Part shown: positions 10,206 to 61,427 of the stretch, one piece after another
How the letters are laid out: each line of letters opens with the position of its first letter
Numbering within the stretch: position 1 is the first letter of the stretch
From: Actinophytocola algeriensis
Lineage (GTDB): Bacteria > Actinomycetota > Actinomycetes > Mycobacteriales > Pseudonocardiaceae
Assembly: GCF_014203735.1 (NCBI RefSeq)
Contig: NZ_JACHJQ010000011.1
Location: 310,001-374,000, forward strand
Direction: 5' to 3'
Length of the DNA stretch: 64,000 bases
Program-made: the position numbers and the translations under genes
Notes under the pieces: model-generated
Databases searched by the model: none
What the model saw: only the letters and a program-made list of their open reading frames with translations
Told to the model about the DNA's origin: nothing

Positions 10206-12205
<2,000 letters not shown>

Positions 12206-12216
12206 GCCGAGCCGCA

Positions 12217-12238
12217 GGTTCGCTCCGCAAGCTCCGCC
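12217..12238 (-). repeat. Dispersed GAGCTTGCGGAGCGAA element, reverse copy
   Basis: Reverse complement of the first half of the dispersed element described at 56013 and 60334 (core GGAGCTTGCGGAGCGAA). It lies in the guaB-guaB3 gap in the opposite orientation to transcription and carries no second half. Confidence 0.7.
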
Positions 12239-12252
12239 AGAAAGGAACTCCC

Positions 12253-13386
12253 GTGCCGGATCTTGTCGAGATCGGCATGGGGCGAACCGCCCGCCGCGGC
12301 TACGCGCTGCACGAGGTGGAGATCGTCCCGTCCCGCAGGACCCGGTCGTCGCAGGACGTGTCGACCGAGTGGAAGATCGACGCGTACCGCTTCGACATCC
12401 CGCTGCTGACGCACCCGACCGACGCGGTCGTGTCGCCGTCGGTGGCGGTGGAGGTCGGCAAGCTCGGTGGTCTCGGCGTGCTCAACGCCGAGGGCCTGTG
12501 GGCCCGGCACGCGAACGTCGAGCAGGTGCTCGAGCGGATCGTCGCCACCCTCGACGACCTGGACCACACCGCGCTGACCCGGCTGCTGCAGGAGCTGCAC
12601 GCGGCGCCGATCAAGCCGGAGCTGATCACCGAGGCGGTCAAGCGGGTCGCCGAGGCCGGGGTGACGGCCGCCGCGCGGGTGAGCCCGCAGCGGGCCGCGG
12701 AGCTGACACCCGCGCTGCTGGCCGCCGGGGTGGAGATCCTGGTCGTGCAGGGCACGATCGTGTCCGCGGAGCACGTGTCGCGCGACGGTGAGCCGCTGAA
12801 CCTGAAGTCGTTCATCGCCGAGCTGGACGTGCCGGTGATCGCCGGTGGCGTGCACGACTACCGCACGGCCATGCACCTCATGCGCACCGGCGCGGCCGGT
12901 GTCATCGTCGGCTACGGCACGGGTGTCGCGACGACCACGGACAGCGTGCTGGGCATCGGTGTGCCGATGGCGACGGCGATCGTCGACGCGGCCGCCGCAC
13001 GCCGCGACTACCTCGACGAGACCGGTGGCCGGTACGTGCACGTCATCGCCGACGGCGAGGTCGACGGCAGCGGCGACATCGCGAAGTCCATCGCCTGCGG
13101 CGCGGACGCGGTCATGCTGGGCAGCCCGCTCGCCACCGCCAAGGAGGCCCCGGGCCGGGGTCTGTACTGGACCGCGGCCGCCGCGCACCCGTCGCTGCCG
13201 CGCAGCCGGGTCATCCCGGCGGCCGTCGAGGAGGAGATCACCGACCTCCGCACGCTGCTGTTCGGCCCGTCGTCGGACCCGGACGGTGTGATCAACCTGT
13301 TCGGCGCCCTGCGGCGCGCGATGGCGAAGACCGGCTACTCGGACCTGAAGGAGTTCCAGAAGGTCGGCCTCTCGGTACGCGGATGA
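12253..13386 (+). CDS. guaB3: GuaB3 family IMP dehydrogenase-related protein
   Basis: 377 aa from GTG 12253 (AAAGGAA upstream). It has the IMPDH/GMPR barrel without CBS domains. The N-terminus (EIGMGRTARRGYALHEVEIV) is typical of actinobacterial GuaB3. In the loop equivalent to the GuaB active site (GYGTGVATTTDSVLGIGVPM) I see no cysteine, so ordinary IMPDH chemistry at that residue is not expected. Its role in actinobacteria is not settled. It is in operon with guaB, and its TGA overlaps the next ATG (ATGA at 13383). Confidence 0.9.
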   Translation: MPDLVEIGMGRTARRGYALHEVEIVPSRRTRSSQDVSTEWKIDAYRFDIPLLTHPTDAVVSPSVAVEVGKLGGLGVLNAEGLWARHANVEQVLERIVATLDDLDHTALTRLLQELHAAPIKPELITEAVKRVAEAGVTAAARVSPQRAAELTPALLAAGVEILVVQGTIVSAEHVSRDGEPLNLKSFIAELDVPVIAGGVHDYRTAMHLMRTGAAGVIVGYGTGVATTTDSVLGIGVPMATAIVDAAAARRDYLDETGGRYVHVIADGEVDGSGDIAKSIACGADAVMLGSPLATAKEAPGRGLYWTAAAAHPSLPRSRVIPAAVEEEITDLRTLLFGPSSDPDGVINLFGALRRAMAKTGYSDLKEFQKVGLSVRG

Positions 13387-13410
13387 GCGAAGCTTGCGGA
13401 GCGAACATCG
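13383..13410 (+). repeat. Dispersed micro-ORF element, half copy fused to the GNAT gene
   Basis: It begins with ATGAGC overlapping the guaB3 stop and continues AGCTTGCGGAGCGAACATC, identical to the first half of the dispersed element. Here the micro-ORF (MSEACGAN) reads on in frame into the acetyltransferase. The element supplies GGAG eight bases before GTG 13410. Confidence 0.75.
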
Positions 13411-14951
13411 TGGCTGGAGAGATCGTTGCCGCACGGGACGGTGTGGGGCTCGCCGAGCTGACCGACGACGACCGCCGGGTGCTCGACGAGCAGGGCGACG
13501 GCGCCTACGACGTCGACCCGGACGACCGCCCGGCACTGCACTTCACGTTCGAGGTACACCGGCTCGCGATCGTGGCCGCCGAGACCGGCGCCGTGCTCGG
13601 TTCGGTCAACTGGCACGCCGTCGGCTACGGCCGCACCGCCGCCTGCACCGCGTGGAACATCGGCATCGGCCTGCTGCCCGCCGCACGCGGCAAGGGCGCA
13701 GGCGTGACGGCATTGCGCCTGCTCATCGAGCACCTGTTCGCGACCACCGAGGTGGACCGGATCGAGGCCAGCGCCGACGTCGGGAACGTGCGGTCGCAGA
13801 AGGCGCTGCGCAAGGCGGGCATGCGGCGCGAAGGCGTGCTGCGGGGCGCGCAGCGGCGCGGCGGCGAGCGGCGCGACATGGTCGGGTTCGCGATCCTGCG
13901 GTCCGACCTGCCCGACCCGGACGCAGTCCGCGAGATCGTCGCGACCGGCGACGGCATCGCGCTCGCCGTCCCGCTGCCCGGCGACGCCGAGGCGATGGGC
14001 GAGCAGCGGTACGCGAGCGACTTCGACCTCGATCCCGACGACCGGCCGCTGCGCCACCACCCGACCTCGGAGCGGCTCGTCGTGCTCGACCGGGCCACCG
14101 AGCAGCTGCTCGGCGCCATCAGCTGGCACGCCGTCGGCTACGGCCCGACCGCGGCCTGCGAGGCGTGGAACATCGGGCTCGCGCTGGTGCCGGAGGTGCG
14201 GGGTCGTGGCGCGGGCACGACCGCGACCCGGTTGCTCGCCGAGTACCTGTTCGCGTCCACCGACATCGACCGGATCGAGGCGAGCACCGACCGGGAGAAC
14301 GTGCCGGCTCAGCGCGTGCTGGCGAAGGCGGGGTTCCGGCCGGAAGGCCTGATCCGCGGTGGTCAGCTGCGGGGTGGGCGCCGCCGCGACATGCTGTCCT
14401 ACAGCCTGCTGCGCACCGACGCCATCGAGGACGCGGAGTCCGCGGACCGGCACGTCGTGATCGAACGCGACGGCGTGGTGCTGGCCGAGCCGGGCCCTGG
14501 CGACCGCGAGGCGTTCTACGTGGCGGCGGCCGGGGACTTCGCCGTCGACCCGGACGACCGGCCGCGGGTCGCCGGGCCTGCGCGGACGTCGCTGTTCAGC
14601 GTGCTCGACGCCGGGACCGGTGACCTGCTCGGCGGCGTCAGCTGGCACGCGGTCGACTACGGCGGCACCGTGTCGTGCTCGGCGTGGAACATCGGCATCG
14701 GCTTGCTGCCGGCCGCTCGCGGCCGGGGCATCGGCACGGCCGCGCAGCGGTTGCTGGTGGAGCACCTGCTGGCCACGACCGAGCTGGACCGCGTCGAGGC
14801 CAGCACCGACATCGACAACGTCGCCGAGCAGCGGGCCCTGGAGAAGGCCGGTTTCCGGCGGGAGGGCGTGCTGCGGGGCGCGCAGCTGCGCGGCGGTGTC
14901 CGGCGGGACCTGGTGCACTACGGGCTGGTCCGGAGCGACGTCGAGGCCTAA
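13383..14951 (+). CDS. Triple-domain GNAT acetyltransferase
   Basis: 522 aa from ATG 13383; GTG 13410 (513 aa) is an alternative that excludes the element-derived MSEACGANI. Three tandem GNAT domains of the RimJ/RimL type lie at about 12-175, 190-350 and 360-520. Each has the same order: a DPDDRP motif, a SWHAVxYG core, an AWNIGxxLxPxxRGxGxGTxAxRLL acetyl-CoA loop and an EASxDxxNVxxQxxLxKAG(F/M) end. All three keep the acyl-CoA loop, so all may be active. Single-domain homologues usually acetylate amino termini or small amines; the substrate is unknown. It is coupled to guaB3 by an ATGA overlap. Confidence 0.85.
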   Translation: MSEACGANIVAGEIVAARDGVGLAELTDDDRRVLDEQGDGAYDVDPDDRPALHFTFEVHRLAIVAAETGAVLGSVNWHAVGYGRTAACTAWNIGIGLLPAARGKGAGVTALRLLIEHLFATTEVDRIEASADVGNVRSQKALRKAGMRREGVLRGAQRRGGERRDMVGFAILRSDLPDPDAVREIVATGDGIALAVPLPGDAEAMGEQRYASDFDLDPDDRPLRHHPTSERLVVLDRATEQLLGAISWHAVGYGPTAACEAWNIGLALVPEVRGRGAGTTATRLLAEYLFASTDIDRIEASTDRENVPAQRVLAKAGFRPEGLIRGGQLRGGRRRDMLSYSLLRTDAIEDAESADRHVVIERDGVVLAEPGPGDREAFYVAAAGDFAVDPDDRPRVAGPARTSLFSVLDAGTGDLLGGVSWHAVDYGGTVSCSAWNIGIGLLPAARGRGIGTAAQRLLVEHLLATTELDRVEASTDIDNVAEQRALEKAGFRREGVLRGAQLRGGVRRDLVHYGLVRSDVEA

Positions 14952-26908: not shown

Positions 26909-27568
26909 ATGGCGGAGAAGCCCGTAAGGGTGTTCCTGGTGGACGACCACGGCCTGTTCCGGGCCGGGGTGCGTGCCGAGCTGGACTCCATCACCGACGA
27001 GGTCGAGGTCGTCGGTGAGGCGGGCACGGTCGGTGAGGCGGTCGCCGGGATCGCGCACAAGAAACCGGACGTGGTGCTGCTCGACGTGCACATGCCCGAC
27101 GGCGGCGGCGCCGAGGTGCTGCGCCGGTCGCGGCCCGACAACCCCGAGGTCGTGTTCCTGGCGCTGTCGGTGTCCGACGCGGCCGAGGACGTCATCGCGG
27201 TCATCCGGGCCGGTGCGCGCGGGTACGTCACCAAGACGATCTCCAGCCACGAGCTGGTCCGCGCGGTCGTGCGGGTTTCCGAGGGCGACGCGGTGTTCTC
27301 CCCGCGCCTGGCGGGTTTCGTGCTGGACGCGTTCGCCGACCGGCCCGGCGCCGCACCGATCTCCGACCCGGAGCTGGACCTGCTGACCCCGCGCGAACGC
27401 GACGTGCTGCGGCTGCTCGCCCGCGGGTACGCGTACAAGGAGATCGCGGCGGAGCTGTTCATCTCGGTGAAGACGGTGGAGACGCACGTGTCGAGCGTCC
27501 TGCGCAAGACGCAGCTGTCGAACCGGTACGAGCTGTCCCGCTGGGCTTCGGACCGACGGCTTGTCTGA
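26909..27568 (+). CDS. LuxR-family response regulator of the PspC system
   Basis: 219 aa from ATG 26909 (AGAGGGG eight bases upstream); GTG 26900 lies inside that ribosome site. Receiver domain: acidic pair D12-D13, phosphoacceptor D59 (VVLLDVHMPDG), and Lys in YVTKTIS. C-terminal HTH: LTPRERDVLRLLARGYAYKE and ISVKTVETHVSSVLRKTQLS. Unlike BldM in this window the phosphorylation site is complete. It is the cognate partner of the upstream kinase by operon position. Confidence 0.93.
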   Translation: MAEKPVRVFLVDDHGLFRAGVRAELDSITDEVEVVGEAGTVGEAVAGIAHKKPDVVLLDVHMPDGGGAEVLRRSRPDNPEVVFLALSVSDAAEDVIAVIRAGARGYVTKTISSHELVRAVVRVSEGDAVFSPRLAGFVLDAFADRPGAAPISDPELDLLTPRERDVLRLLARGYAYKEIAAELFISVKTVETHVSSVLRKTQLSNRYELSRWASDRRLV

Positions 27569-27629
27569 GCGGAGCTTGCGGAGCGAACATCGTCATTGTC
27601 GAGCTTGCGGAGCGAACATCGTCATTGAC
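27566..27629 (+). repeat. Dispersed element, tandem 29-bp duplication
   Basis: The first half of the dispersed element (TGAGCGGAGCTTGCGGAGCG) overlaps the regulator stop. The 29-bp stretch 27572-27600 is then repeated at 27601-27629 with one difference, TTGTC in the first copy and TTGAC in the second. The end of the second copy supplies the -35 box of the following MerR promoter. Confidence 0.8.
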
Positions 27630-27665: not shown

Positions 27666-28472
27666 ATGTTCAGTATCGGAGACTTCGCCAGACACGGCCG
27701 CGTGTCGGTCCGCATGTTGCGGCACTACGACGCGATCGGCCTGCTGCGGCCCGCACGCGTGGACCCGCATTCGGGGTACCGCGGGTACGAGGCCGGGCAG
27801 CTGTCGCGCCTGAACCGCATAGTCGCCTTGAAGGACCTGGGTTTCACGCTGGAGCAGGTCGCGACGATCATCGACGACAAGGTCGGGATCGACGAGCTGC
27901 GTGGCATGCTGCGGCTGCGGCAGGCCGACCTGCAGACCCGGATCGTGGCGGACCGGGCCAGGCTGACGGCCATCGAGGCGAGGCTCCGTTCGATTGAGAC
28001 GGAGGGCGCCATGCCGGTCCAGGATGTGCAGGTCAAAAAGGTTCCGCCGGTGCGGGTCGCGGAGGTCACGGGGGTGGCCGCGAGCTTCGAGCCGGGGTCG
28101 GTCGGCCCGGTGATCGGGCCGCTGTACGACGAGCTGCACGGCTATCTGCAGGCGGCCGGGGTCGAGCCGGTGGGCCCGGGGATCGCTTACTACGAGGACG
28201 CCGAGGACGGCGGGGTGCTGGTGCACGCCGCGTGCCCGGTCAACGTCCCGGCGGTGGACGGCGCGACCGTGGTGGACCTGCCGGGCATCGAACGCGCGGC
28301 GACGATCGTGCACCACGGGGACATGGACAACGTGCTGTCGACCATCCAGACGCTGGCGACGTGGATCGAGGAGAACGGCCACACGTCGGCGGGCTACAAC
28401 CGCGAGGTGTACCTGGAGGCGATGGGCGACTGCTCGACATGGGTCACCGAACTGCAGGAACCGCTGAAGTAG
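27666..28472 (+). CDS. MerR-family regulator with GyrI-like ligand domain (BmrR-type)
   Basis: 268 aa from ATG 27666. The N-terminal MerR DNA-binding domain (MFSIGDFARHGRVSVRMLRHYDAIG), a dimerisation helix (about 75-115) and a C-terminal GyrI-like/effector-binding domain (about 125-265; VKKVPPVRVAEVTG, then YEDAEDGG and AATIVHHGDMDNV). BmrR-type proteins bind cationic hydrophobic drugs. No efflux gene follows directly: 620 non-coding bases and an inverted repeat intervene. Probably autoregulatory through the adjacent operator. Confidence 0.9.
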   Translation: MFSIGDFARHGRVSVRMLRHYDAIGLLRPARVDPHSGYRGYEAGQLSRLNRIVALKDLGFTLEQVATIIDDKVGIDELRGMLRLRQADLQTRIVADRARLTAIEARLRSIETEGAMPVQDVQVKKVPPVRVAEVTGVAASFEPGSVGPVIGPLYDELHGYLQAAGVEPVGPGIAYYEDAEDGGVLVHAACPVNVPAVDGATVVDLPGIERAATIVHHGDMDNVLSTIQTLATWIEENGHTSAGYNREVYLEAMGDCSTWVTELQEPLK

Positions 28473-28540
28473 GGGCGGCCGCCGGCCCCCGGTCACCACG
28501 CTACGGCACAGCACCGACATCCCGGCCCGGCGCGACCCGA

Positions 28541-28661
28541 GTTGTCCACAGCCGACCCGGTTGTCCACAACTGGGCTGACGCGCTGGATTTCGCCACCTC
28601 CAGCTGGTAGACTGGCAAGGCGGGACGCCCCCGGGACAGGGTGGGGGTTGCGTTCCGGCCG
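28541..28661 (+). repeat. 120-bp inverted repeat, copy 1, with two DnaA-box-like sites
   Basis: Starts with GTTGTCCACA (28541) and a second TTGTCCACA (28561-28569), then GCGCTGGATT, CTGGTAGACTGGCAAGGCGG and a GACGC...GCGTTC hairpin ending near 28661. The reverse complement of 30901-31023 aligns along the whole length at roughly 80-85% by eye, with a core of about 55 bases almost identical. TTGTCCACA is the preferred actinobacterial DnaA box. Confidence 0.8.
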
Positions 28662-28697
28662 GTTTCGGTTCTGCGGGCGCCGCGGAGCGGCGGTTTG

Positions 28698-28752
28698 TGC
28701 CCTGAAAGACGCTTTCGTGACGCTCAGTGCCCCAAAAGCGTCTTTCAGGGCA
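28698..28752 (+). terminator. Perfect 18-bp hairpin
   Basis: TGCCCTGAAAGACGCTTT (28698-28715) is exactly complementary to AAAGCGTCTTTCAGGGCA (28735-28752), with a 19-base loop. A related AGCGTCTTTC hairpin follows uvrD at 40784. Either a terminator without a T-run or a member of a dispersed hairpin family. Confidence 0.6.
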
Positions 28753-29092
28753 TCGTCGGCGGCGCGGCGGCCACGGACGGGTGCGTGAAAGCCGTGCCCT
28801 GACTTTGCCGGTGTCCTCGGGTCCCCGTGTGGCGTCGCCGGTCTGGACCATCTCCAGTCTTGGCTGGTTCAATGGCCGGGTGCCGCGTGGCCTCGCCAGC
28901 ACAAGGGCGAGGGTGGGCGAGCACCCAACTTTCCAAGGGGATGATGTCCGTGGCCAACCACAACATCGGCGCCGCCTGACCGCTGACGCCCGCGCGGTCA
29001 TCCCCTCCTCCCTGCACAGCTCTGTCCTTTTGGCGATCGGGAGACGCCGCGCACTCGCCTGTGCTCGTTCACCCGAACCCGGAAGAGGAACT

Positions 29093-30746: not shown

Positions 30747-30900
30747 GAGACCCACGGTGCACTCGGCGGCCCGGTAGGACAAGCAAATAGAAGCACACTG
30801 ACGCGTTAGCAAAACTGAAAGATCAGAAGAGGTCCCCGGCGATCCCCGAAGCAGCCGGAGCCGGCCCAACCACGCACCCGACCTGCACAAACTCCGCGAA

Positions 30901-31023
30901 CCAGCCGGAACGCAACCCCCACCCTGTCCCGTGGGCGTCCCGCCTTGCCAGTCTACCAGTTGACGGCGGCAGAATCCAGCGCGCGAGCCGAACTGTGGAC
31001 AACTCACCCTGCTGTGGACAACT
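30901..31023 (-). repeat. 120-bp inverted repeat, copy 2
   Basis: Reverse-oriented partner of 28541-28661, including the hairpin core and two TGTGGACAA sites (31013-31022 region and near 30994). It lies in the 376-base gene-free gap between the EamA start and the first kinase stop; outside it that gap shows only AT-poor sequence and a GCGGCCGCC near 31082. The core hairpin keeps pairing between copies through a CCCCC/GGGGG to CCCAC/GTGGG change. Confidence 0.8.
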
Positions 31024-31122
31024 GCCCTCGCGGCGACCGTCGTTGTCGGTGCGCGCCGCTACGCTGGTGATCGGGGGCTGGCGGCCGCCCCAAGCACAAC
31101 AACAGGACCAGGACCGGACGGC

Positions 31123-32709
31123 TCAGCCGTCGTCCTCGTCGTCCTCGTCGGACGCGTTGCCCAGCTTCTTGTAGGAGTCGATCAGCAGCTCGTCGTCCTG
31201 TTCGACAAGCGTCAGCCGGTACTCCTCAGTGGACGTCCGGTCCCGCTTCGTCACGAACTCGAGCGTCGCGTCGACGACGGCGCCCGACGCGGTCGTCGAC
31301 ACCACGTCCACCGACTCCACGGTTTTCCAGAACCGCTTGTACGCCCGCACACCGCCGGACTTCTCCTGCGCGTTCGCCGTCATCATCGCCCACGCCGCGT
31401 CCACGTCGTCCGGGAGCCGGTCGTAGTAGTCCCGGACCGCCGCCTCGTAGTCCTCCGGCGTCGGCTCCTCGGAGGTGGCCGACGTGGCAGAGGTCGCCGA
31501 CGTGGCAGAGGTGGCCGACGGTGATGGCGCCGCGCCGTTGTCGTCGTTGGTGTTCGCCAGCAGGCTCGCCACCAGGATCCCCACCAGCGCCGCCGCGATG
31601 ATCGCCAGCACCGTCAGCACGATCGACCGCACCCGCGAGGCACCCGGGGCCGCCGCGGGCCGCTGCTGCGGCGGGGGCGGCGTCTGCTCCCGCATGATCG
31701 GGCCGCTCGGCACCGGCTCCGCGAACGGGTGCACGTCCAGCCGCGTGCCCTCGTGCGGGGGCGCTGCCACCGGCGGAGGCGGCGCGGACCACCTCGGCGG
31801 GGTGGGCGGCGGGACGGGCGGACGCGCGGGCAGCCGGTTGCCGGCGATCCGGTCGGTTGGCGCCGCGGCGGCGCTGAGCGTCGGCTGCCTGCCGTCGGCG
31901 ACCGCCAGCAGGCTGTCCCTGGTCACGGTCAGCGACGGCCGCTCGGACGGTTCCACCCGCAGCAGCTGCATCAACAGCGCGGTCAGCGGACCGGCCTGCC
32001 TGGGCGGCGTGATCTTGCCCGCCGCCACCGCGTACAGCAGCGCCAGGGTGTTCTCGCTCAGTCCGAACGGGGAGTGGCCCTCGATCGCCGTGTACAGGGT
32101 CGAACCCAGCGAGAAGACGTCCGCCGCGGGCTTGGGGTCCTCGCCCTTCGCGACCTCGGGGGCCAGGTACGCGGGGGTACCGGCGAGCATCCCGGTCGCG
32201 GTGACCGTCACGTCACCGGTGGCGCGGGAGATGCCGAAGTCGGTGATCTTCACTGTGCCGTCGTCGCCGAGCAGCACGTTCGCCGGCTTGATGTCGCGGT
32301 GCACGATGCCCGCGGCGTGTGCGGCGACCAGCGCCGACGCCACCTGCGCGCCGATCCGCGCGACCTCGGTGGGTGGCAGGGTGCCCTGTTCGGTCAACAC
32401 CGTCGCGAGGCTCTTCGACGGCAGGTACTCCATGATCAGCCACGGGTCGCCGTCGTGTTCCGCGACGTCATACACCGTGATGGCGTTGGGATGCGTCAGT
32501 CGTGCCGCGATCCGCCCTTCCCGCATGCATCTTCGGCGCGCCTCCTCGGCCTGCGCGGCCGAGAGACCGGGCTGCAGCAGCAGCTGCTTGACGGCGACCG
32601 TGCGGTGCAACCGCTCGTCGTGCGCCTGCCACACGATGCCCATCGCGCCGCTGCCGATCTGGCGGCCCAGCTGGTATCGCCCGGCGACGAGCGCACCCTC
32701 CGCCGTCAT
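31123..32709 (-). CDS. Membrane Ser/Thr protein kinase with NTF2-like extracytoplasmic domain
   Basis: 528 aa from ATG 32709. Kinase domain 10-270: GSGAMGIVW loop, VAVKQ lysine, catalytic HRDIKPANVLL, ITDFG, and APE in AYLAPE. A Pro-rich linker follows (270-370), then one membrane span (about 372-395, IVLTVLAIIAAALVGILVAS), a linker with four Ser-Ala-Thr repeats encoded by a 15-bp tandem repeat (31480-31530), and an outer domain (YEAAVRDYYDRLPDDVDAAW; AYKRFWKTVESVDVV; ATLEFV). It has no PASTA repeats, unlike PknB. The outer domain resembles those of the two membrane proteins upstream and may sense a ligand. It is second in a kinase pair, 25 bases after the first. Confidence 0.9.
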   Translation of the reverse strand: MTAEGALVAGRYQLGRQIGSGAMGIVWQAHDERLHRTVAVKQLLLQPGLSAAQAEEARRRCMREGRIAARLTHPNAITVYDVAEHDGDPWLIMEYLPSKSLATVLTEQGTLPPTEVARIGAQVASALVAAHAAGIVHRDIKPANVLLGDDGTVKITDFGISRATGDVTVTATGMLAGTPAYLAPEVAKGEDPKPAADVFSLGSTLYTAIEGHSPFGLSENTLALLYAVAAGKITPPRQAGPLTALLMQLLRVEPSERPSLTVTRDSLLAVADGRQPTLSAAAAPTDRIAGNRLPARPPVPPPTPPRWSAPPPPVAAPPHEGTRLDVHPFAEPVPSGPIMREQTPPPPQQRPAAAPGASRVRSIVLTVLAIIAAALVGILVASLLANTNDDNGAAPSPSATSATSATSATSATSEEPTPEDYEAAVRDYYDRLPDDVDAAWAMMTANAQEKSGGVRAYKRFWKTVESVDVVSTTASGAVVDATLEFVTKRDRTSTEEYRLTLVEQDDELLIDSYKKLGNASDEDDEDDG

Positions 32710-32734
32710 GGAGTGACCCCCCGAAAGTGCACCA

Positions 32735-34003
32735 TCAGCCTTCGGCTCCGACCGTCGTGGTCGTCACCGGCGGCTGTGTGGTCGTGGTGGTCGTCGGCTC
32801 CGGCTCTTCCTCGACCGTCGTCGGCTCGGATGACGTGGTCAGCTCTGACGTCGGTACGACCTCACTCGACTGGGTCTGCTTCGTCTGGCTCGGATCGGTC
32901 GTCGGCGTCTCGTTGTTGTCCCGGCCGGACATCAGGAACGCCACCGCCGCGATCACGGCCACCAGCGCCAGCCCGGCACCCACCACGATCGGCGCGCGGG
33001 ACTTCTTCGGCCGAGGAGGCGGCGGGCCCACCCGCGATGCGCGCACGGCCCGGGTCCGGTCGTCGGTGCCGACCATCTGCGTGGCCGAGTCGCCGTAGTA
33101 CCCGTCGTCGTAGTCGTCGTAGTCGTCGATCAGCTCGGTCTGGCGGGTACCCGAGGCCATCGGCAGCGGGACGTCCGGCACCTCACCCATGGCGACCGAA
33201 TGCAGCAGGTCCCTGGTCCGCGACGTCGTCGGCCGCTGCTCCGGCTCGGCCGCGAGCATCGCCACCAGCACACCGGTGAGCGGGCCCGCCAGCTGCGGCG
33301 GGTTGATCCGGCCGGCCGCGACCGCGTGGAGCAGCTGCAGCGTGTTCTCCGTCAGCCCGAACGGCGGCTCGCCCTCGACCGCCGCGTACAGCGTCGAACC
33401 CAGCGAGAACACGTCCGACGCGGGCGTCGGGTCGTTGCCGACCGCGGCCTCCGGCGCCAGGTAGGCGGGCGTGCCGGCGATCATGCCGGTCTTGGTGACC
33501 GTCACGTCGTCGCTGGCCCGCGAGATGCCGAAGTCGGTGATCTTCACGGTGCCGTCGTCGCCGAGCAGGATGTTGCCCGGCTTGACGTCCCGGTGCACGA
33601 TGCCCGCCGCGTGCGCGGCCGCCAGCGCGGCGGCCGACTGGGCGCCGATCCGCGCCACCTCACGGGCGGGGAGCGGGCCGCGCTCCGACATCACCATCGC
33701 GAGGGACTTCGACGGCAGGTACTCCATGATCAGGCAGGGCGCGCCGTCCTCGTCGACCACGTCGAACACCGAGATCGCGTTCGGGTGGTGCAGGCGGGCG
33801 GCGATGCGACCCTCGCGCATGCACCGCGCGACGGCTTCGGCCTGCTCCTCCGGCGGGAGGCCGGGCTGGAGCAGCAGTCTCTTGACGGCGACGGTGCGGT
33901 TCAGTCTCTCGTCGTGCGCCGTCCACACGACGCCCATGGCACCGGTTCCGATGCGGTGCACCAGGCGGTAACGGCCGGCGACCAGGCGACCTTCATCGGT
34001 CAT
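32735..34003 (-). CDS. Membrane Ser/Thr protein kinase, paralogue with short outer tail
   Basis: 422 aa from ATG 34003. The kinase domain is strongly similar to the downstream kinase (GTGAMGVVW, VAVKRLLLQPGLP, HRDVKPGNILL, ITDFGISRA). An acidic Asp/Tyr stretch (DDYDDYDDGYYGD) near 290 could be a phosphorylation or docking site. One membrane span (about 340-358) is followed by a Thr/Pro/Glu tail ending TTTTTTQPPVTTTTVG, without a folded outer domain. It arose with the next gene by tandem duplication; only the partner has the NTF2-like sensor. Confidence 0.9.
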   Translation of the reverse strand: MTDEGRLVAGRYRLVHRIGTGAMGVVWTAHDERLNRTVAVKRLLLQPGLPPEEQAEAVARCMREGRIAARLHHPNAISVFDVVDEDGAPCLIMEYLPSKSLAMVMSERGPLPAREVARIGAQSAAALAAAHAAGIVHRDVKPGNILLGDDGTVKITDFGISRASDDVTVTKTGMIAGTPAYLAPEAAVGNDPTPASDVFSLGSTLYAAVEGEPPFGLTENTLQLLHAVAAGRINPPQLAGPLTGVLVAMLAAEPEQRPTTSRTRDLLHSVAMGEVPDVPLPMASGTRQTELIDDYDDYDDGYYGDSATQMVGTDDRTRAVRASRVGPPPPRPKKSRAPIVVGAGLALVAVIAAVAFLMSGRDNNETPTTDPSQTKQTQSSEVVPTSELTTSSEPTTVEEEPEPTTTTTTQPPVTTTTVGAEG

Positions 34004-38287: not shown

Positions 38288-38368
38288 ATGAGCGCAGCTT
38301 GCGGAGCGAATCATCAGACACAGGGCGACCGCGAGCGGCTCCCCGGAGCCTGCGAGGGGGAGTCGTGA
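38288..38368 (+). repeat. Dispersed micro-ORF element, full copy before uvrD
   Basis: A 26-codon micro-ORF reading MSAACGANHQ ... LPGACEGES, whose TGA overlaps the uvrD GTG (GTGA at 38365). The 3' part gives the uvrD ribosome site GAGGGGGAG. Both conserved halves are present (GCAGCTTGCGGAGCGAATC and GGAGCCTGCGAGGGG). Here it is the first ORF of the transcript rather than lying between two genes. Confidence 0.8.
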
Positions 38369-42422: not shown

Positions 42423-43080
42423 TTCGTGACCGGACCGTGACAACGGACCGGGGGAAGATAACGAAGGGGCACCGCTGAGGGCAACTTCCGTGAACCAGGT
42501 CCGCCAAACGGGTGGCGCCAAAACCTTCTGTAACCAGGCCTGATAACCCAAAGTGAATCGAAGGTTACCTACCCGATGTGACCCAAGACACCAATTCCCG
42601 GCCCGCAACCAGCGGTCCAGGACCACCCAACGGCCGCCCCGCGAGGTGTTCCGTAACCAAACCCGAGCCCCGCGCGGGAGCCACACACCCACAAGGTTCG
42701 GCCTCCAGTCAGGCGAACGACCCAAGAGAGAAGGTCACCAGCACAACCACCAAAAGCACCAACAAGGAAGCGACTTCCGCCCGACGCGGCGCGCACGGCG
42801 GAGCCCGAGCGGACGGCGTGGCCCGAGCACCGGGCTCCCGAAACAGGCCGAGACCCGCAAGCCGAGACCCGCGACATCGGACTCAGGCACGCCGGTTCCT
42901 GGACGCCGGCTGCCTGGCAGCACGCCTGCATGCCTGGTCACTGGTTGCCTGGCCGGCTGAACGCTGACTGCCGGCCTGGCCTCCGGGCGTTGCCCGCCTG
43001 GCCGACGCCCCGACTGGCCCACGCCCGGTGTGGTTGCTGGTGGCTGGCGGGTGGGCTGGCTGCCTGGCCTCTTGGCGTTG

Positions 43081-43336
43081 CCTGCCCGGCCGACGCTCGG
43101 CTGGGCCGCGGCCAGGCTGCTGGCGGGTGAGCAGCCGGCTGGCCACCGCTGGCCGCCGCCTGGCGGGTTGCTGGCGGGTGGGCTGCCTGGCTGCCTGGCG
43201 CTCCCTGCCCGGCCGACGCTTGGCTGGGCCGCGGCCAGGCTGCTGGCGGGTGAGCAGCTGGCTGGCCACCGCTGGCCGCCGCCTGGCGGGTTGCTGGCTG
43301 GCGGGTTGCTGGCGGGTGGGCTGCCTGACTGCCTGA
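43081..43336. repeat. 123-bp direct tandem repeat
   Basis: Unit 1 starts at 43081 (CCTGCCCGGCCGACGCT) and unit 2 at 43204 with the same start. The units differ by a few substitutions and a 10-base insertion of CTGGCGGGTT type in unit 2. A partial third copy precedes at about 43038-43080. Internal shorter repeats of CTGGCGGGT are frequent. Confidence 0.8.
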
Positions 43337-43543
43337 CGACTTGGTGTTGCCTGCCTGCCGGACGCTTTGGCCGGGCCCATGCGCGACCCAGCGCTGCCGT
43401 GAGAGCTGGTCGTTCAGGGTGGTCGGTGAAGCGGGCCCCGGTGCGGTCAGTGGCGGGTGGGCAGGCGCGCGGATGTGCCGTCGGCCGATCAGGGGTGGGC
43501 GCGACATGTGCGGCGGAAGGAGCCTTGCTAGCGTCTTCACACA

Positions 43544-55146: not shown

Positions 55147-56016
55147 GTGGCCCTCCTCAGTGACAAGGCGACGGACAGACCCAAGGCGGACAAGGCCTTC
55201 CTGAAGGCAGTGGACCGGCGGTTCACGTTCCTCGACGTCCTCGGCGACCAGATCTTCTTCTTCCTCAAGGCGATCGCGTGGATCCCGCGCGCGATCCGCC
55301 GCTACGGCAAGGAGATCATGCGCCTGATGGCCGAGGTCAGCTTCGGCTCCGGCGCGCTCGCGGTCATCGGCGGCACCATCGGCGTGATGGTCGGCATGAC
55401 CGCGTTCACCGGTTTCGTCGTCGGCATGCAGGGCTACTCGGCACTGAACCAGGTCGGCACGCCCGCGCTCGCCGGGTTCATCTCCGCGTACTTCAACACC
55501 CGCGAGATCGCGCCGCTCGTCGCGGGCATCGCGCTGTCGGCCACGGTCGGCTGCGGGTTCACCGCACAGCTGGGCGCCATGCGGATCTCCGAGGAGATCG
55601 ACGCGCTCGAGGTGATGGGCGTGCCGAGCATCCCGTACCTCGTCACCACCCGGATCATCGCCGGGTTCCTCGCGATCATCCCGTTGTACGCGATCGGCCT
55701 GCTGACCTCCTACGTCGCGTCCAGACAGGTGACGATCTGGTTCTTCGGCCAGTCGGCGGGCACGTACGACCACTACTTCCACCTCTTCTTGCCGCCTATC
55801 GACGTGCTCTACTCGTTCGGCAAGGTGCTGGTGTTCAGCATCGTCGTCGTGCTCGCGCACTGTTACTACGGCTTCCGCGCGACCGGCGGGCCCGCGGGCG
55901 TGGGTGTCGCGGTGGGCCGGTCGGTGCGCACGTCCCTGGTCGCGGTCAGCGTGATCGACCTGTTCCTGAGCCTCGCGCTGTGGGGCGCCACCACGACGGT
56001 GCAGGTGGCGGGATGA
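55147..56016 (+). CDS. yrbEB: Mce permease subunit YrbE-B (MlaE family)
   Basis: 289 aa from GTG 55147, one base after yrbEA. Same family: GFTAQLGAMRISEEIDALEV plus MGVPSIPYLVTTR coupling loop and 5-6 membrane segments (GGTIGVMVGMTAFTGFVVGM). Its TGA overlaps the ATG of the following micro-ORF element. Confidence 0.94.
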   Translation: MALLSDKATDRPKADKAFLKAVDRRFTFLDVLGDQIFFFLKAIAWIPRAIRRYGKEIMRLMAEVSFGSGALAVIGGTIGVMVGMTAFTGFVVGMQGYSALNQVGTPALAGFISAYFNTREIAPLVAGIALSATVGCGFTAQLGAMRISEEIDALEVMGVPSIPYLVTTRIIAGFLAIIPLYAIGLLTSYVASRQVTIWFFGQSAGTYDHYFHLFLPPIDVLYSFGKVLVFSIVVVLAHCYYGFRATGGPAGVGVAVGRSVRTSLVAVSVIDLFLSLALWGATTTVQVAG

Positions 56017-56081
56017 GCGGCGCCTGCGGAGCGAATCATCGAGCACAGTCGCCGCTCGGAGCCTGCGAGGAGCGGTCATGA
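56013..56081 (+). repeat. Dispersed micro-ORF element between yrbEB and mceA
   Basis: A 22-codon micro-ORF reading MSGACGANHR ... LGACEERS. Its ATG overlaps the yrbEB stop (ATGA at 56013) and its own TGA overlaps the mceA ATG (ATGA at 56078). The 3' half provides GAGGAG as mceA ribosome site. The two halves each carry G-A-C codons in the same frame, an internal direct repeat. Confidence 0.85.
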
Positions 56082-57310
56082 CCGGCAAACTCGTCAGACG
56101 GTCGGCGGGGATCGCGTTCCTGCTGGTGATGGCCGTGCTCGCGTGGCTGTCAGTGCAGGTGTACGAGGAAGCGTTCTCCGACGACGTGCTCGTGACGCTG
56201 AAGACCGACCGGATCGGCAACCAGCTCAACGAGGCGTCGCAGGTCAAGGCGCGCGGTGTGGTCGTCGGTGACGTGCGCGCGGTGCGCGCCGGGCCGGACG
56301 GCGCGACCATCGAGCTGGCCATGAAGGCGGAGACCCTGGAACGCCTCCCCAAGGACGTCACCGCGCTGCTGATCCCGAAGACCCTGTTCGGTGAGCGGTA
56401 CGTCCAACTGTCCATTCCGGACGACTCGGTGGCGGACCCCCTCGAAGGGGGTGACGTCATCCGCCAGGACCGGTCGCGGAACGCGATCGAGCTGGAGCGC
56501 GTGTTCGACGACCTGATGCCGGTGCTGAAGGCCGTGCAGCCGGAGAAGCTCGCCACCACGCTCACCGCGATCGCCACCGCACTCGAAGGTCGCGGCGAAC
56601 AGCTCGGCCGCACGATGGTCGACACCGCCACGTACCTGGAGGAGTTCAACCCGAACCTGCCGACGCTCACCGACGACCTGCGTGCCCTGGCGGAGGTCAG
56701 CGAGCTGTACGGCGACATCGCGCCCGACCTGCTCGACTCGCTCACCGACTCGTCGGTCACCCTCAACACCGTCGCCGACCAGCGCGTCCAGCTCACCGAC
56801 CTGTACGCGCAGGTCACCAGGTCCGCGCAGGACGTCACCGTGTTCCTGCGCAACAACTCCGAGAACCTGATCCGGCTGGCCGCGTCGAGCCGCGCACCGC
56901 TCGAGATCGCCGCCGAGTACTCGCCGAGCTTCCCGTGCACGCTCGAGGCGCTGACCGACCTGAAGCCGTCGGTGGACAACCTGTTGCGTGACGGCGGTGT
57001 GCACGTCGACCTGGTCGTCACCGAGGACCGCGGCAAGTACGTCCCCGGCCGCGACGACCCGGTCTACGACGCGACCGGTGGCCCCCGCTGCTACCCGAGC
57101 GGGGTCGCGCCGACGCAGGGCACGGTCGCGGCACCGGCCGGTGGCGCGGGGCACCCGCTGCTGTCCGGCGACGACCTCGGGCTCGCGAACTCGCCGCAGG
57201 AACAGGAACTGATCGGCACCCTGCTGGCGCCCGCGATCGGCGAGGTGCCCGGCTGGTCGAGCGTGCTCGTCGGCCCGCTCTACCGCGGCACGGAGGTGAC
57301 ACTGCGATGA
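56078..57310 (+). CDS. mceA: Mce family protein MceA
   Basis: 410 aa from ATG 56078. N-terminal anchor (AGIAFLLVMAVLAWLSVQVY), MCE/MlaD domain about 35-115 (ASQVKARGVVVGDVRAV; LFGERYVQLSIPDDS), then the long helical region (LERVFDDLMPVLKAVQPEKL) and a Cys pair towards the C-terminus (SFPCTLEALT; GPRCYPSG). Forms part of the hexameric lipid-conducting tube spanning the envelope. Confidence 0.93.
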   Translation: MTGKLVRRSAGIAFLLVMAVLAWLSVQVYEEAFSDDVLVTLKTDRIGNQLNEASQVKARGVVVGDVRAVRAGPDGATIELAMKAETLERLPKDVTALLIPKTLFGERYVQLSIPDDSVADPLEGGDVIRQDRSRNAIELERVFDDLMPVLKAVQPEKLATTLTAIATALEGRGEQLGRTMVDTATYLEEFNPNLPTLTDDLRALAEVSELYGDIAPDLLDSLTDSSVTLNTVADQRVQLTDLYAQVTRSAQDVTVFLRNNSENLIRLAASSRAPLEIAAEYSPSFPCTLEALTDLKPSVDNLLRDGGVHVDLVVTEDRGKYVPGRDDPVYDATGGPRCYPSGVAPTQGTVAAPAGGAGHPLLSGDDLGLANSPQEQELIGTLLAPAIGEVPGWSSVLVGPLYRGTEVTLR

Positions 57311-58311
57311 GGAAACTGGCCGCGCCGCTGATCAAGGGCCTGATCTTCGTGCTGGTCACCGGCCTCGCCACGGCCGTGCTCGCGATCTCGATCGGCAACG
57401 GGGGCGTCGGCGACACGCTGACCTACTCGGCCCGGTTCACCGATGTCACGTCGCTCAACCCCGGCGACGACGTGCGGATCCACGGCGTGCGTGTCGGGCA
57501 GGTCGACGAGATGTCCGTTGTGGACGGTCACCTCGCGCTCGTGACGTTCTCGGTCGACAAGTCCAAACCCCTGCCCGCGGACGTCACCGCGACCATCAAG
57601 TACCGCAACATGGTCGGGCAGCGGTACATCGCGCTCGAACGCGGCGAGAAGCTGTCGGCGGCCCTCCTCGCCGAGGACGACGAGATCCCGCTCGATCGGA
57701 CCCGGCCCGCCCTGGACCTGACCGACCTGTTCAACGGCTTCAAGCCGCTGTTCCAGGCGCTGTCGCCGAAGGACGTCAACGACCTGTCCGGCGAGATCGT
57801 CCAGGTGCTGCAGGGTGAAAGCGGCACGGTCGACTCGCTGCTCGCCCACACCGGTTCGCTGACCACCACGCTCGCCGACCGCGACCAGGTCATCGGTGAC
57901 GTGATCACGAACCTGAACTCGGTCCTCGCCAACATCAACGGGCAGGGCGACGCACTGTCCACACTGGTCGGCACGCTGCAGCGGCTGGTGTCGGGCCTCG
58001 CGGGCGACCGGGCCGCGATCGGCGACGCGATCCAGGGCATGGCCGACCTGACCGGCGCCACCGCCGGCCTGCTCGAACAAGCCAGGGCACCGCTCAAGCA
58101 GAGCATCTCCGGCCTCGGGATGCTCGCGTCGAACCTGGTCACCGGCCAGGAAGCGCTCGAACAGTTCCTCACGGCCACCCCGGCCAAGTTCGAGGCGGTC
58201 GGCCGCACCGCGTCCTACGGGTCCTGGCTCAACTTCTACCTGTGCGAGGCGATCCCCATCGGCCACGAGGAGCACAGCTACGTCAGCGGCGCGGCGAGGT
58301 GTGACTCGTGA
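57307..58311 (+). CDS. mceB: Mce family protein MceB
   Basis: 334 aa from ATG 57307, 4-base overlap with mceA. Membrane anchor (LIFVLVTGLATAVLAISIGN), MCE domain (DVTSLNPGDDVRIHGVRVGQ; MVGQRYIALERGEK), helical tail and C-terminal Cys pair (LNFYLCEAIP; GAARCDS). Confidence 0.93.
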   Translation: MRKLAAPLIKGLIFVLVTGLATAVLAISIGNGGVGDTLTYSARFTDVTSLNPGDDVRIHGVRVGQVDEMSVVDGHLALVTFSVDKSKPLPADVTATIKYRNMVGQRYIALERGEKLSAALLAEDDEIPLDRTRPALDLTDLFNGFKPLFQALSPKDVNDLSGEIVQVLQGESGTVDSLLAHTGSLTTTLADRDQVIGDVITNLNSVLANINGQGDALSTLVGTLQRLVSGLAGDRAAIGDAIQGMADLTGATAGLLEQARAPLKQSISGLGMLASNLVTGQEALEQFLTATPAKFEAVGRTASYGSWLNFYLCEAIPIGHEEHSYVSGAARCDS

Positions 58312-59303
58312 GGAAGTCCTTCCGCGAACGCAGGCCGGGGCCGATCGGCGTCATCGGCACCGTGGCACTGCTCGCGATCACCGCGCTCGTGTACTTCTGG
58401 CCCGACCTGCCCGGCATCAACGGCTCCACCTACGAGGCCGAGTTCTCCGAGGCCGCCGGGCTGCGGCCGGACGACGAGGTGCGGGTCGCCGGCATCAAGG
58501 TCGGCGAGGTCACCGGGGTCGAGCTGGACGTGGACCGGGTGCTGGTCACGTTCCGCGTCGAGGACACGTGGATCGGCGACCACACCACCGCCGCCATCAA
58601 GATCAAGACGTTGCTGGGCCGCAAGTTCCTCGCCCTGCACCCGACGGGCGGCCGCGACCAGGACCCGGACGTGCGCATCGGGCTGGACCGCACGGTCACG
58701 CCCTACGACGTGACGCAGGCGTTCGAGGGCCTCGCCGACACCGCGGGCGCCATCGACACCGACCAGCTCGCCGAGAGCTTCCGCACGATCTCCGACACGT
58801 TCGCGGACTCGCCGACACACGTCCGGTCCGCCCTAGACGGGCTGACCTCCTTGTCCCGCACCATCTCCTCCCGCGACGACCAGCTCGCCGAGCTGCTGCG
58901 CAACACCCGCCAGATCACCTCGACGCTGGCAGGCACCAACGAGGAGTTCGACAAGCTGCTCGACGACGGCGAGCTGCTGCTGACCGAGCTGGCGGGCAGG
59001 CGCGACGCCATCCACGACCTGCTGACCGGTACCACCGACCTCGCGAAGCAGCTGTCCGGGCTGGTGGCCGACAACTCCGAGCAGCTCGACGGCGCGCTCA
59101 CCCAGCTCGAGGTCGTCACCGACGTGCTCACGCGCTACGGCGCCCAGCTCGACCGCGGCCTCCAGCTCGCGGGCCCGTACTTCCGCGTGATCAACAACGC
59201 GACCGGCAGCGGCCGCTGGCTCGACACCTACGTCTGCGGTCTGGTCGAAGAGAACCGCGAACCCTGTACGCCGCCACGACTTCCGCAAGGGGGACCCCGG
59301 TGA
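58308..59303 (+). CDS. mceC: Mce family protein MceC
   Basis: 331 aa from GTG 58308, 4-base overlap with mceB. Anchor (GVIGTVALLAITALVYFW), MCE domain (EAAGLRPDDEVRVAGIKVGE; LLGRKFLALHPTGG), helical region and C-terminal Cys residues (DTYVCGLV, REPCTPP). Confidence 0.93.
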   Translation: MRKSFRERRPGPIGVIGTVALLAITALVYFWPDLPGINGSTYEAEFSEAAGLRPDDEVRVAGIKVGEVTGVELDVDRVLVTFRVEDTWIGDHTTAAIKIKTLLGRKFLALHPTGGRDQDPDVRIGLDRTVTPYDVTQAFEGLADTAGAIDTDQLAESFRTISDTFADSPTHVRSALDGLTSLSRTISSRDDQLAELLRNTRQITSTLAGTNEEFDKLLDDGELLLTELAGRRDAIHDLLTGTTDLAKQLSGLVADNSEQLDGALTQLEVVTDVLTRYGAQLDRGLQLAGPYFRVINNATGSGRWLDTYVCGLVEENREPCTPPRLPQGGPR

Positions 59304-60337
59304 ACGACACGAGGGCCCGCCGCCGTCTCGGCCGGATGGTCGCGCTGGCCACGGTGCTCGCCGTGGTCGCCGCGGGCGTGCTGTGGTGGGTGTTCGGCGG
59401 CGACGACCAGAAGCGGATCACCGCGTACTTCTCCCGCGCGGTCGGCGTGTATGCGGGCTCGGACGTGCAGGTGCTCGGCGTGCGGGTCGGTGCGGTCGAG
59501 TCCGTGACCCCGCGCGGCGACCGCGTCGAAGTCGTGTTCACCGTGGACGGTGAGGTCGGGGTGTCGCCAGGCACGAAGGCGGTCGTCGTCGCGCCGAGCG
59601 TCGTGTCCGACCGGTACGTGCAGCTCACCGACCTGTCCCGCGGCGGCCCCGTGATCGCCGACGGCGCCGTGATCCCCGAGTCGCGCACCGCGACCCCGGT
59701 CGAGCTGGACGAGCTGTACGCGAGCCTGAACACGCTGGTCTCGGCGCTGGGCCCGGACGGGTCGAACTCCGACGGCGCGCTGTCGGAGCTGCTCGACACC
59801 GGTGCCGCGAACCTCGAGGGCAACGGCGAGGCGTTCAACGAGAGCGTCCGCAACTTCGCCGAGGCCGCGCGCACGCTGTCCGGCTCGGCGGGCGACCTGT
59901 TCGGCACGGTCGACGAGCTGCAGAAGTTCACGACCATGCTCGCCACCAACGACGACCAGGTCAGGGGCGTGAACACCCAGCTCGACCAGGTGTGGCGCAC
60001 CCTGGCCGCCGACCGCGACGAGCTGAGCACGGCACTGGGCACGCTCGCGTCCGCGCTCGCCGACATCCAGGCGTTCATCCGCGACAACCGCACCGCCATC
60101 AAGTCCAATGTGGACAAGCTGGCGCGGACGACCCAGCTGCTGGTGGACAACCGCGCGTCGATCGCGGAGGCGCTCGACGTGGTACCGATCGCGGCGACCA
60201 ACGTGGTGAACGCGTTCGACCCGGCGACCGGGACCCTCCAGGGCCGCGGGATTCTCCTCGAGTACCTGGCCGGCTCGGACGCGCCGGTCGTCCCGCTGCC
60301 GTTCACGGACGGCATGCCGTTGGAGGGACCGCGATGA
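59300..60337 (+). CDS. mceD: Mce family protein MceD
   Basis: 345 aa from GTG 59300, 4-base overlap with mceC. Anchor (MVALATVLAVVAAGVLWWVF), MCE domain (RAVGVYAGSDVQVLGVRVGA; VSDRYVQLTDLSRGG) and helical tail; it lacks the C-terminal Cys pair of its neighbours and ends PLPFTDGMPLEGPR. Its TGA overlaps the following micro-ORF ATG. Confidence 0.93.
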   Translation: MNDTRARRRLGRMVALATVLAVVAAGVLWWVFGGDDQKRITAYFSRAVGVYAGSDVQVLGVRVGAVESVTPRGDRVEVVFTVDGEVGVSPGTKAVVVAPSVVSDRYVQLTDLSRGGPVIADGAVIPESRTATPVELDELYASLNTLVSALGPDGSNSDGALSELLDTGAANLEGNGEAFNESVRNFAEAARTLSGSAGDLFGTVDELQKFTTMLATNDDQVRGVNTQLDQVWRTLAADRDELSTALGTLASALADIQAFIRDNRTAIKSNVDKLARTTQLLVDNRASIAEALDVVPIAATNVVNAFDPATGTLQGRGILLEYLAGSDAPVVPLPFTDGMPLEGPR

Positions 60338-60405
60338 GCGGAGCTTGCGGAGCGAATGCTCAAGCACAGCGGCGCCCCGGAGCCTGCGAGGGGGCGGCGA
60401 CATGA
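60334..60405 (+). repeat. Dispersed micro-ORF element between mceD and mceE
   Basis: A 23-codon micro-ORF reading MSGACGANAQ ... PGACEGAAT. ATGA overlaps at both ends (60334 with the mceD stop, 60402 with the mceE start). GAGGGGG in its 3' half is the mceE ribosome site. It differs from the copy at 56013 in the third and fourth codons only by synonymous changes (GGA/GGC, GCT/GCC), and in length by one codon. Confidence 0.85.
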
Positions 60406-61427
60406 GGCGCGTTCTCGCCGCCTGTGCCGCGGTCCTCGCGCTCGCCGGGTGCACCGCGACCGGCACGAACGGCATCTACGACGTGCCGCTGCCCGGCGGC
60501 GCGGACCTCGGCGACCACCCGTACCGGGTCACCGTCGAGTTCGCCGACGTGCTCGACCTCGTGCCGCAGGCGGCGGTGAAGGTCAACGACGTGGTCGTCG
60601 GCCGGGTCGAGTCGATCGAGCTGGGTGGCGCGGACCGGTGGACACCGCAGGTCGTGGTCGCCGTCAACGGCGACGTGGCGCTGCCCGCCGACGCGCGGGC
60701 GAGCCTGCGCCAGTCGAGCCTGCTCGGGGAGAAGTTCGTCGAGCTGTCCGCACCCGATGGCAGCACCGGCGCGAAGAAACTGGCCGACGGCGCGGTGATC
60801 ACCGCCGACCGCACGAACCGGCACACCGAGGTCGAGGAGGTCTTCGGCGCGCTGTCGCTGCTGCTCAACGGTGGTGGCATCGGGCAGCTGCGGACCATCA
60901 ACCAGGAGCTGACGAAGGCGCTGTCGGGCAACGAACCGGAGATCAAGGCCTTCCTGTCCAATGTGGACGAGCTGGTGACGAACCTCGACGAGCACCGAGG
61001 TGACATCACCGCCGCGCTCGACGGGCTCAACCAGCTGTCGGCCACGCTGGCGAGCCGGGACGAGCAGATCCGCGGCGCGCTCACCGACCTCACCCCTGGC
61101 CTCGCCGCGCTGACCGAGCAGCGCAGCGCACTCGTCACGATGCTGCAGTCGCTCGACACGCTGTCGGACGTCGCGGTCGACACGATCAACCGCAGCCGCG
61201 ACGACATGGTCGCCGACCTGAAGGCGCTCGCGCCGATCCTCAACCAGCTCGCCGCCGCGGGCCAGGACCTGCCGCAGGCGCTGGAGATCCTGCCGACGTT
61301 CCCGTTCACCGACTCGGTGCTCGACGCGACGAAGGGCGACTACATCAACATCTTCCTGCACATCGAGGTCGACCCGGACTTCACCGAGCCGCTGCCGCCC
61401 CTGCCGATCCCGGAAGGGGGCAACTGA
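60402..61427 (+). CDS. mceE: Mce family lipoprotein MceE (LprK-like)
   Basis: 341 aa from ATG 60402. Lipoprotein signal MRRVLAACAAVLALAGC with lipobox LAGC, Cys at 17. MCE domain (DLVPQAAVKVNDVVVGRVES; LLGEKFVELSAPDGS) and helical tail ending LPPLPIPEGGN. Lipid-anchored member of the hexamer, as in all actinobacterial mce operons. Confidence 0.95.
   Translation: MRRVLAACAAVLALAGCTATGTNGIYDVPLPGGADLGDHPYRVTVEFADVLDLVPQAAVKVNDVVVGRVESIELGGADRWTPQVVVAVNGDVALPADARASLRQSSLLGEKFVELSAPDGSTGAKKLADGAVITADRTNRHTEVEEVFGALSLLLNGGGIGQLRTINQELTKALSGNEPEIKAFLSNVDELVTNLDEHRGDITAALDGLNQLSATLASRDEQIRGALTDLTPGLAALTEQRSALVTMLQSLDTLSDVAVDTINRSRDDMVADLKALAPILNQLAAAGQDLPQALEILPTFPFTDSVLDATKGDYINIFLHIEVDPDFTEPLPPLPIPEGGN

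Follow-up and report, generated by a model that had tools for sequence, protein, structure and literature searches.

A Probable MIRU-like Mobile Repeat with a Coupled Micro-ORF at Stop-Start Junctions of Actinophytocola Operons

Results and Discussion

The window analysed here, a stretch of 64,000 nucleotides (nt; C11:310001-374000) of the 9.73 Mb draft genome (98% complete) of an Actinophytocola (Pseudonocardiaceae), contains three full copies of a short repeat which, as judged from the DNA sequence, is in all likelihood a non-autonomous mobile element resembling the mycobacterial interspersed repetitive units (MIRU), located at overlapping stop-start junctions and carrying a micro open reading frame (micro-ORF) that would pass ribosomes on to the next gene. 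A first-pass annotation of the window had read the repeat as a spreading, translated spacer that couples the genes of operons, and this reading is largely supported by the junctions, the reading register and the empty sites found in sister species, although the principle of a mobile repeat coupling an ORF at start codons is already published for MIRUs.

The full copies lie on the forward strand at 38288-38368, 56013-56081 and 60334-60405, as annotated, with micro-ORFs of 26, 22 and 23 codons, respectively, within the claimed range of 22-26 amino acids. In each of them the micro-ORF stop overlaps the next start (GTG at 38365, ATG at 56078 and ATG at 60402), and at 56013 and 60334, but not at 38288, the ATGA of the previous stop is also the micro-ORF start. 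The copy at 56013 is of the 65-type and lies between an MlaE permease gene (55147-56016, forward) and an Mce protein gene (56078-57310, forward), its left end on an ATGA stop and its right end on an ATGA start. The copy at 60334 is placed in the same way, from an ATGA stop to the ATGA start at 60402, and is flanked by two Mce protein genes (59300-60337 and 60402-61427, both forward). The stop of the 77-type copy at 38288 overlaps the GTG start of a UvrD/PcrA-type helicase gene.

Copies in the Genome and Their Stop-Start Junctions

Allowing at most one mismatch, the 5' core was found 279 times in the genome, compared with 13 matches of its reversed control; the corresponding numbers were 64 and 2 for the 3' core and 20 and 0 for the strict full pattern. 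From 23 strict copies a covariance model (R1) was built, which gave 149 genome matches at E ≤ 1. Full copies were examined in 72 of these, namely all 66 matches of at least 48.4 bits and six weaker ones picked by hand, one of which (C1:797651) is a lone 5' unit; the other 77 include many in arrays of 5' units. The repeat is thus short and dispersed in tens of copies (66 matches of at least 48.4 bits in 9.73 Mb, with lengths of 53-98 from the variable base D of the left-hand DTGA to that of the right-hand one). The coding frames of the flanks were called by codon statistics trained on long ORFs of the window rather than by a gene finder.

The left end carried DTGA in 62 of the 66 matches. In 55 of these 62 the micro-ORF stop overlapped a downstream start by 4 nt in the called coding frame, which is the -4 coupling geometry of MIRUs as far as geometry alone can tell; in 46 the left end overlapped the upstream stop, and in 42 both overlaps were present. 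The seven copies without the 4-nt overlap comprised two 8-nt overlaps, one TAATG, one TAGTG, and one each running into the next tandem copy, facing an ambiguous downstream call on the opposite strand, and breaking off after 9 codons. Among the six weaker copies, three showed the 4-nt overlap, two formed an in-frame fusion with the next gene, and one failed the start rule. The coding call was in the sense direction upstream of 68 and downstream of 71 of the 72 copies. Many copies out of frame, bearing stops or lying off junctions had been named in advance as the mark of an ordinary non-coding repeat; this picture was not seen genome-wide, 55/62 copies overlapping the next start by 4 nt and 60/63 being in register.

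Reading Register

The prediction that length varies in whole codons was borne out. The register was measured on the 63 copies with DTGA at both ends, out of 67 with a start, and the D-to-D length was 2 mod 3 in 60 of them (53, 56, 62, 65, 68, 71, 74, 77, 80, 83, 86 or 98). Length 77 was found in 25 copies, 65 in 14 and other lengths in 24; of the latter, 21 were also 2 mod 3, across ten different lengths. With a chance of 1/3 per copy this corresponds to P ~6 × 10−8 if the copies are independent, which some are not, for example the identical tandem full copies C4:739047/738985, which have a junction in common, and the length-62 copies with shared deletions. The exceptions had lengths of 67, 76 and 76, the second 76 (C9:204067) being a measuring artefact, since its 3' DTGA was lost (ATGC) and its start lies at 64, which is not 2 mod 3 either. 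In all three frame-shifted copies (C3:856952, C9:338259 and C9:204067) the terminal stop still overlapped the next start. Internal 9-nt duplications and compensated single deletions preserved the register, and in the copies with GAGCGAGCTTGCGAGCGAA three single deletions sum to one codon.

Openness of the frame was dropped as weak evidence: in 64 copies the micro-ORF frame was open in 64, and the other two frames of this GC-rich DNA were open in 54 and 52, while 87% of frames were still open after shuffling of the spacer.

Insertion Sites in Sister Species

Five filled sites were compared by two DNA queries in five Actinophytocola congeners. Out of the 25 site-genome comparisons, 24 were element-free, as expected of a mobile element inserted at existing overlapping stop-start sites, and one showed a related element. 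The 60334 site was element-free in all five congeners and the 56013 site in four. In A. oryzae the flanks of the latter join at a single ATGA, as compared with ATGA-61 nt-ATGA in the Actinophytocola genome studied, and the element-free junctions at the 56013, 60334 and C9:270128 sites were ATGA or GTGA.

At the 56013-equivalent junction of the fifth congener (L195, G005:C6) the element is related but different and displaced by several bases, which could reflect either an independent insertion or an old one that has diverged. Another junction of the genome studied, preceded by a gene with about 76% identity to the end of the MlaE gene (window 55147), has four tandem 5' units with a period of 32 (L217, C1:353140 onwards) at the place equivalent to window 56013, so that equivalent junctions of related operons have been struck separately.

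A mechanism can be proposed in which the repeat inserts at junctions with a stop-start overlap (DTGA and similar). Its left end would turn the DTGA of the junction into the micro-ORF start, and its right end would bring a new stop-start overlap (RTGA) as the start of the downstream gene, with Shine-Dalgarno bases of the GAGG type directly 5' of the RTGA. A ribosome finishing the upstream gene could then restart on the micro-ORF, unfold and read through both hairpins described below, and restart on the downstream gene. Because of these two restarts the cost of an insertion to the operon, and so to fitness, should be small. The downstream start codon, held in the foot of the right-hand hairpin, may open only while the micro-ORF is translated.

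Two Covarying Hairpins

The 3' half of the repeat forms a stem-loop with the loop GGAGCCTGCGAG and covarying arms, the foot of which is the downstream start codon; it was 92.8% paired in 23 copies, with a covariation of 0.629 against 0.203 after shuffling. A second helix at the 5' end joins positions 1-6 with 19-24 and leaves two G.A mismatches unpaired. In the copy at 56013 the 5' hairpin (DT..GC / GC..AY, 12-nt loop) occupies 56013-56036, its first base being the variable base of DTGA and its partner base 24, and the 3' hairpin 56049-56078; the corresponding positions are 60334-60357 and 60370-60399 in the copy at 60334, and 38288-38311 and 38336-38365 in the copy at 38288.

The two-helix structure was 89.8% paired in 57 copies of the same genome, with a covariation of 0.428 against 0.185 shuffled (0/500), and versions of it slid along the alignment reached at most 0.107. 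Copies that carried the 9-nt duplication or scored under 47 bits were kept out of this alignment (A3), which comprises 57 of the 59 eligible ones; L183 and one identical tandem copy were omitted. Across genera, a partly hand-picked set of 35 sequences, in which the 3' helix but not the 5' one was partly selected by model R1, was 90.5% paired, with a covariation of 0.554 against 0.204 shuffled and at most 0.121 slid. That set (A4) consists of 12 hand-picked copies from the same genome, three named loci and 20 more from L125-L153 (29 loci, of which the nine with unclear ends were omitted). Of 88 distinct Mycobacterium elements, 81 were used for shuffling, and their 3' arms were 86% paired against 72% shuffled. 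Both helices, as predicted structures, rest on covariation rather than on energy folding.

The Variable Base of DTGA

Base 24, at the foot of the 5' helix, is the pairing partner of the D in the 5' DTGA. In 57 copies the pair was G-C in 29, A-T in 19 and G-U in one, with eight unpaired, that is, Watson-Crick in 48/57, and column 1 shared by far its highest mutual information with column 24 (0.488, against 0.126 for the next best column; 0/10000 permutations). The 88 Mycobacterium elements had A-T in 75, G-C in 11 and A-C in two (86/88 A-T or G-C).

Near-identical copies differed in the D-Y pair. Among nearest neighbours, as defined by the rest of the element, the pair type agreed no more than by chance (0.47 against 0.51), while the length class followed the neighbours (0.78 against 0.49), as did the 3' D (0.71 against 0.51, P 0.002; P 0.003 without its pairing partner), the latter weakening when the whole 3' hairpin was removed (0.62 against 0.51, P 0.07). 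This would fit a 5' D derived from the target and a 3' RTGA brought by the element. IS200/IS605 transposons recognise their target by base pairing with a guide, to which the D-Y pairing may be likened. A doubtful extension is a guided mini-transposon, the insertion site of which is recognised by base pairing (D with Y24, then T-A), with the stop-start junction itself as the target word and a mobilising enzyme other than a detectable Y1 transposase. Two points count against it: compensation after insertion would explain the pairing equally well, and pairs 5-20 and 55-76, taken as controls, likewise fail to follow ancestry, so that the copies are mosaic or poorly resolved and the resolution of the comparison is limited. 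A strict 4-bp target duplication is not claimed, the 5' D and 3' D being identical in just 36/62 copies of the genome, though in 82/88 Mycobacterium elements.

The Micro-ORF Peptide

The first-pass annotation had also pointed to several synonymous differences between copies. Such differences exist (23 of the 59 differing codons among codons 2-8 of 50 ungapped copies, 24% being expected among possible single changes), and, as regards the suggested preference for third codon positions, the same codons show 11 first-, 25 second- and 28 third-position differences; the synonymous differences are weak evidence. The main changes, S to N together with A to V, and AAC/AAT, fall at paired positions, and the S to N and A to V changes, the commonest non-synonymous ones, affect the opposite members of a single base pair. 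Moreover, Mycobacterium elements of one length have either ACGAN or ACERII at the same place. Selection for the peptide was rejected on these grounds. The conserved features are the register and the two hairpins, and the predicted peptide looks like filler.

Half Units and N-Terminal Tails

Three loci of half copies had been annotated in the window, and all were recovered. An IMPDH-family gene (12253-13386) ends in an ATGA on which the unit at 13383-13412 (forward) starts; the unit continues in frame as the N-terminal tail of a GNAT protein (ORF 13383-14951) with three acetyltransferase stretches. Two tandem 5'-half units (27565-27622, forward) follow the stop at 27565-27568 (CTGA), with cores at 27574-27587 and 27603-27616 and no overlap with a start. 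An antisense core of the 5' half (12219-12232) lies between the ORFs 10604-12205 and 12253-13386.

Elsewhere in the genome the 5' unit alone forms arrays, mostly with a period of 29-33. Fifteen unit-only loci were retained from 19 viewed, after removal of three full copies and one duplicate, and ten of them begin at the stop codon of the gene upstream; other units are antisense or lie off junctions. Units were coupled to each other in L008 and L022, with a period of 32, and not in L069, which has the same period. A period of 33 gave in-frame tails in an M20-type peptidase (L004) and a PfkB/cytidylyltransferase protein (L073), and four units of this period precede the receiver domain of a LuxR-type response regulator (L025). 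In L193 a PfkB kinase takes its start from a full copy that is shortened.

Distribution in the Order Mycobacteriales

A strict pattern matched just 2/80 relatives, which understates the family, and the covariance model found more. At E ≤ 0.01, R1 matched 82/298 genomes of the order (the genome studied included) in 26/77 genera; chance alone would give about three genomes, and many matches score close to the cut-off, with rough E-values. Of the 81 other matching genomes, 29 were sampled at one locus each: RTGA closes 26 of these loci and TTGA one, the remaining two being a fusion to a gene and an array. A second model (R2), built partly from Mycobacterium copies and with at most 11 candidates scored per genome, had matches in 157/396 Mycobacterium genomes. 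All 27 Mycobacterium loci fetched had 22 codons and ended in RTGA, 24 being followed by an open frame of at least 62 codons and three by the next tandem copy. The 88 distinct elements came from 87 loci selected as ORF-bearing, and 86 of them had 22 codons; among the loci listed, no element with the motif lacked such an ORF. Some tandem copies in Mycobacterium lie exactly 65 apart and share a DTGA. A weak match (E 0.008) came from G387, a Mycobacterium genome of some 4.4 Mb in a single contig.

Relation to MIRUs and Alternative Explanations

MIRUs are reportedly due to Supply et al. in 1997 and are said to have been described originally as lacking dyad symmetry; if so, the two helices are a real difference. 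Other differences of the element described here are its internally paired target base, its half units and in-frame tails, and its order-wide occurrence, the reported host range of MIRUs being mycobacteria. The likenesses were established from published descriptions. A 2025 review (PMC12548453) describes MIRUs as apparently mobile and inserting at start codons, with an internal ORF coupled by a -4 spacing and a likely minimal impact on the gene; other papers give 40-100 bp and 41 places in M. tuberculosis H37Rv (PMC2734929) and lengths of 77 and 53 bp (PMC4213456). By these descriptions, the present repeat agrees with MIRUs in being short, dispersed and apparently mobile and in its start-codon sites and internal ORF with -4 spacing; the two published lengths are also 2 mod 3. 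Tandem copies sharing a junction, seen here in the genome studied and in Mycobacterium, are a further likeness. Coupled short upstream ORFs, which the same review describes as delivering ribosomes (PMC12548453), have the stop-start overlap in common with the repeat, but here the short ORF is the mobile repeat itself. As far as the literature was searched, with few subscription papers covered, no paper was found that treats this repeat in Actinophytocola, or the helices or the pairing of the target base in elements of this kind, and within that scope the covarying hairpins, the pairing of the variable base, the order-wide spread and the in-frame N-terminal tails are new.

The closest competitor of the coupling element, less probable but to be taken seriously, is a mobile hairpin pair acting purely at the DNA level, like a derivative of REP/REPIN or IS200/IS605 elements, that is tolerated at junctions and whose micro-ORF is what remains after selection against copies that break operons; it differs from the preferred reading mainly in emphasis. 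REP/REPIN elements with their RAYT and IS200/IS605 mini-elements likewise have hairpins at both ends, found here by covariation, a high copy number and possibly insertion 3' of a tetranucleotide. The conserved loops, the internally paired DTGA, which recalls the guide-target pairing of IS200/IS605, the unconserved peptide and the lone half units, some off junctions, all suit this explanation. It is opposed by the orientation, REPs occurring both ways round and the repeat being in sense within operons (71/72 downstream calls), by the conserved register and by the lack of a matching enzyme. The Y1 transposase family PF01797 had no match in the draft genome studied, in its five congeners or in the element-bearing Mycobacterium genomes within a set of 26; three of the 26 were positive, none of which had an element match at E ≤ 0.01, and 5/14 control genomes were positive. 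On the strength of this set a Y1 transposase was rejected as the mobiliser.

A cis-regulatory RNA family of the riboswitch or leader type, with a short leader peptide and spread by duplication, is unlikely. Covarying stems, conserved loops and a start codon at the foot of a stem would be expected of it, but no Rfam family matched in the window at the gathering score, the inspected copies adjoin unrelated genes, the five compared sites lack the element in 24/25 comparisons, and the length varies in whole codons. That the repeat is an ordinary non-coding one, in frame by chance or by shared descent of two length classes, is very improbable: lengths 65 and 77 do make up 39/63 measurable copies and the other frames are mostly open as well, but ten other lengths keep the register, the three frame-shifted copies still end on a stop-start overlap, and the deletions in copies with GAGCGAGCTTGCGAGCGAA add up to one codon.

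Several observations weigh against the coupling element. Downstream of the copies at least 60 open codons follow in the right frame in 62/65, but also in 20/65 and 39/65 in the other frames. The DTGA is missing in 4/66 matches and the upstream-stop overlap in 16/62; one copy (C1:1014441) is broken by a stop after 9 codons, two fuse in frame with the next gene rather than couple to it, and 5'-half units also lie off junctions (window 27565 and 12219, and 5/15 unit-only loci). At C9:271372 and C9:272606 most of the element-free junctions read TGATG or TAGTG and not a DTGA overlap. Energy folding of 23 copies gave the 3' hairpin with a 12-nt loop in eight and the 5' helix in none, and four folded copies had z-scores of only -0.24 to -2.26. 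The Mycobacterium sample consists of the best-scoring matches, nearly all of one length.

The coupling element suggests that MIRU-type repeats are an order-wide class rather than a mycobacterial quirk, whose anatomy of two helices lends itself to modelling and searching. Dozens of natural insertions, a few of them matched by empty sites, become available for the study of termination-reinitiation in operons. The element also suggests a possible route by which a parasite enters operons without polar effects, as well as a possible source of new N-terminal tails. The pairing of the target base makes the question of what moves MIRU-like elements testable.

Other Features of the Window

No tRNA gene was found in the window with ARAGORN. 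A GC-rich tandem repeat at 43037-43338 has a unit of 123 nt, with two copies 89% alike and partial copies, and direct repeats about 75% identical and 1294 nt apart (31897-34003) are perhaps duplicated genes. A 193-nt inverted repeat (28472-28664 and 30899-31091), its arms 2.2 kb apart and 79% complementary, could mark the ends of a mobile unit, and nearly contiguous 46-nt inverted-repeat arms at 28679-28771, 74% complementary, could form a long hairpin.

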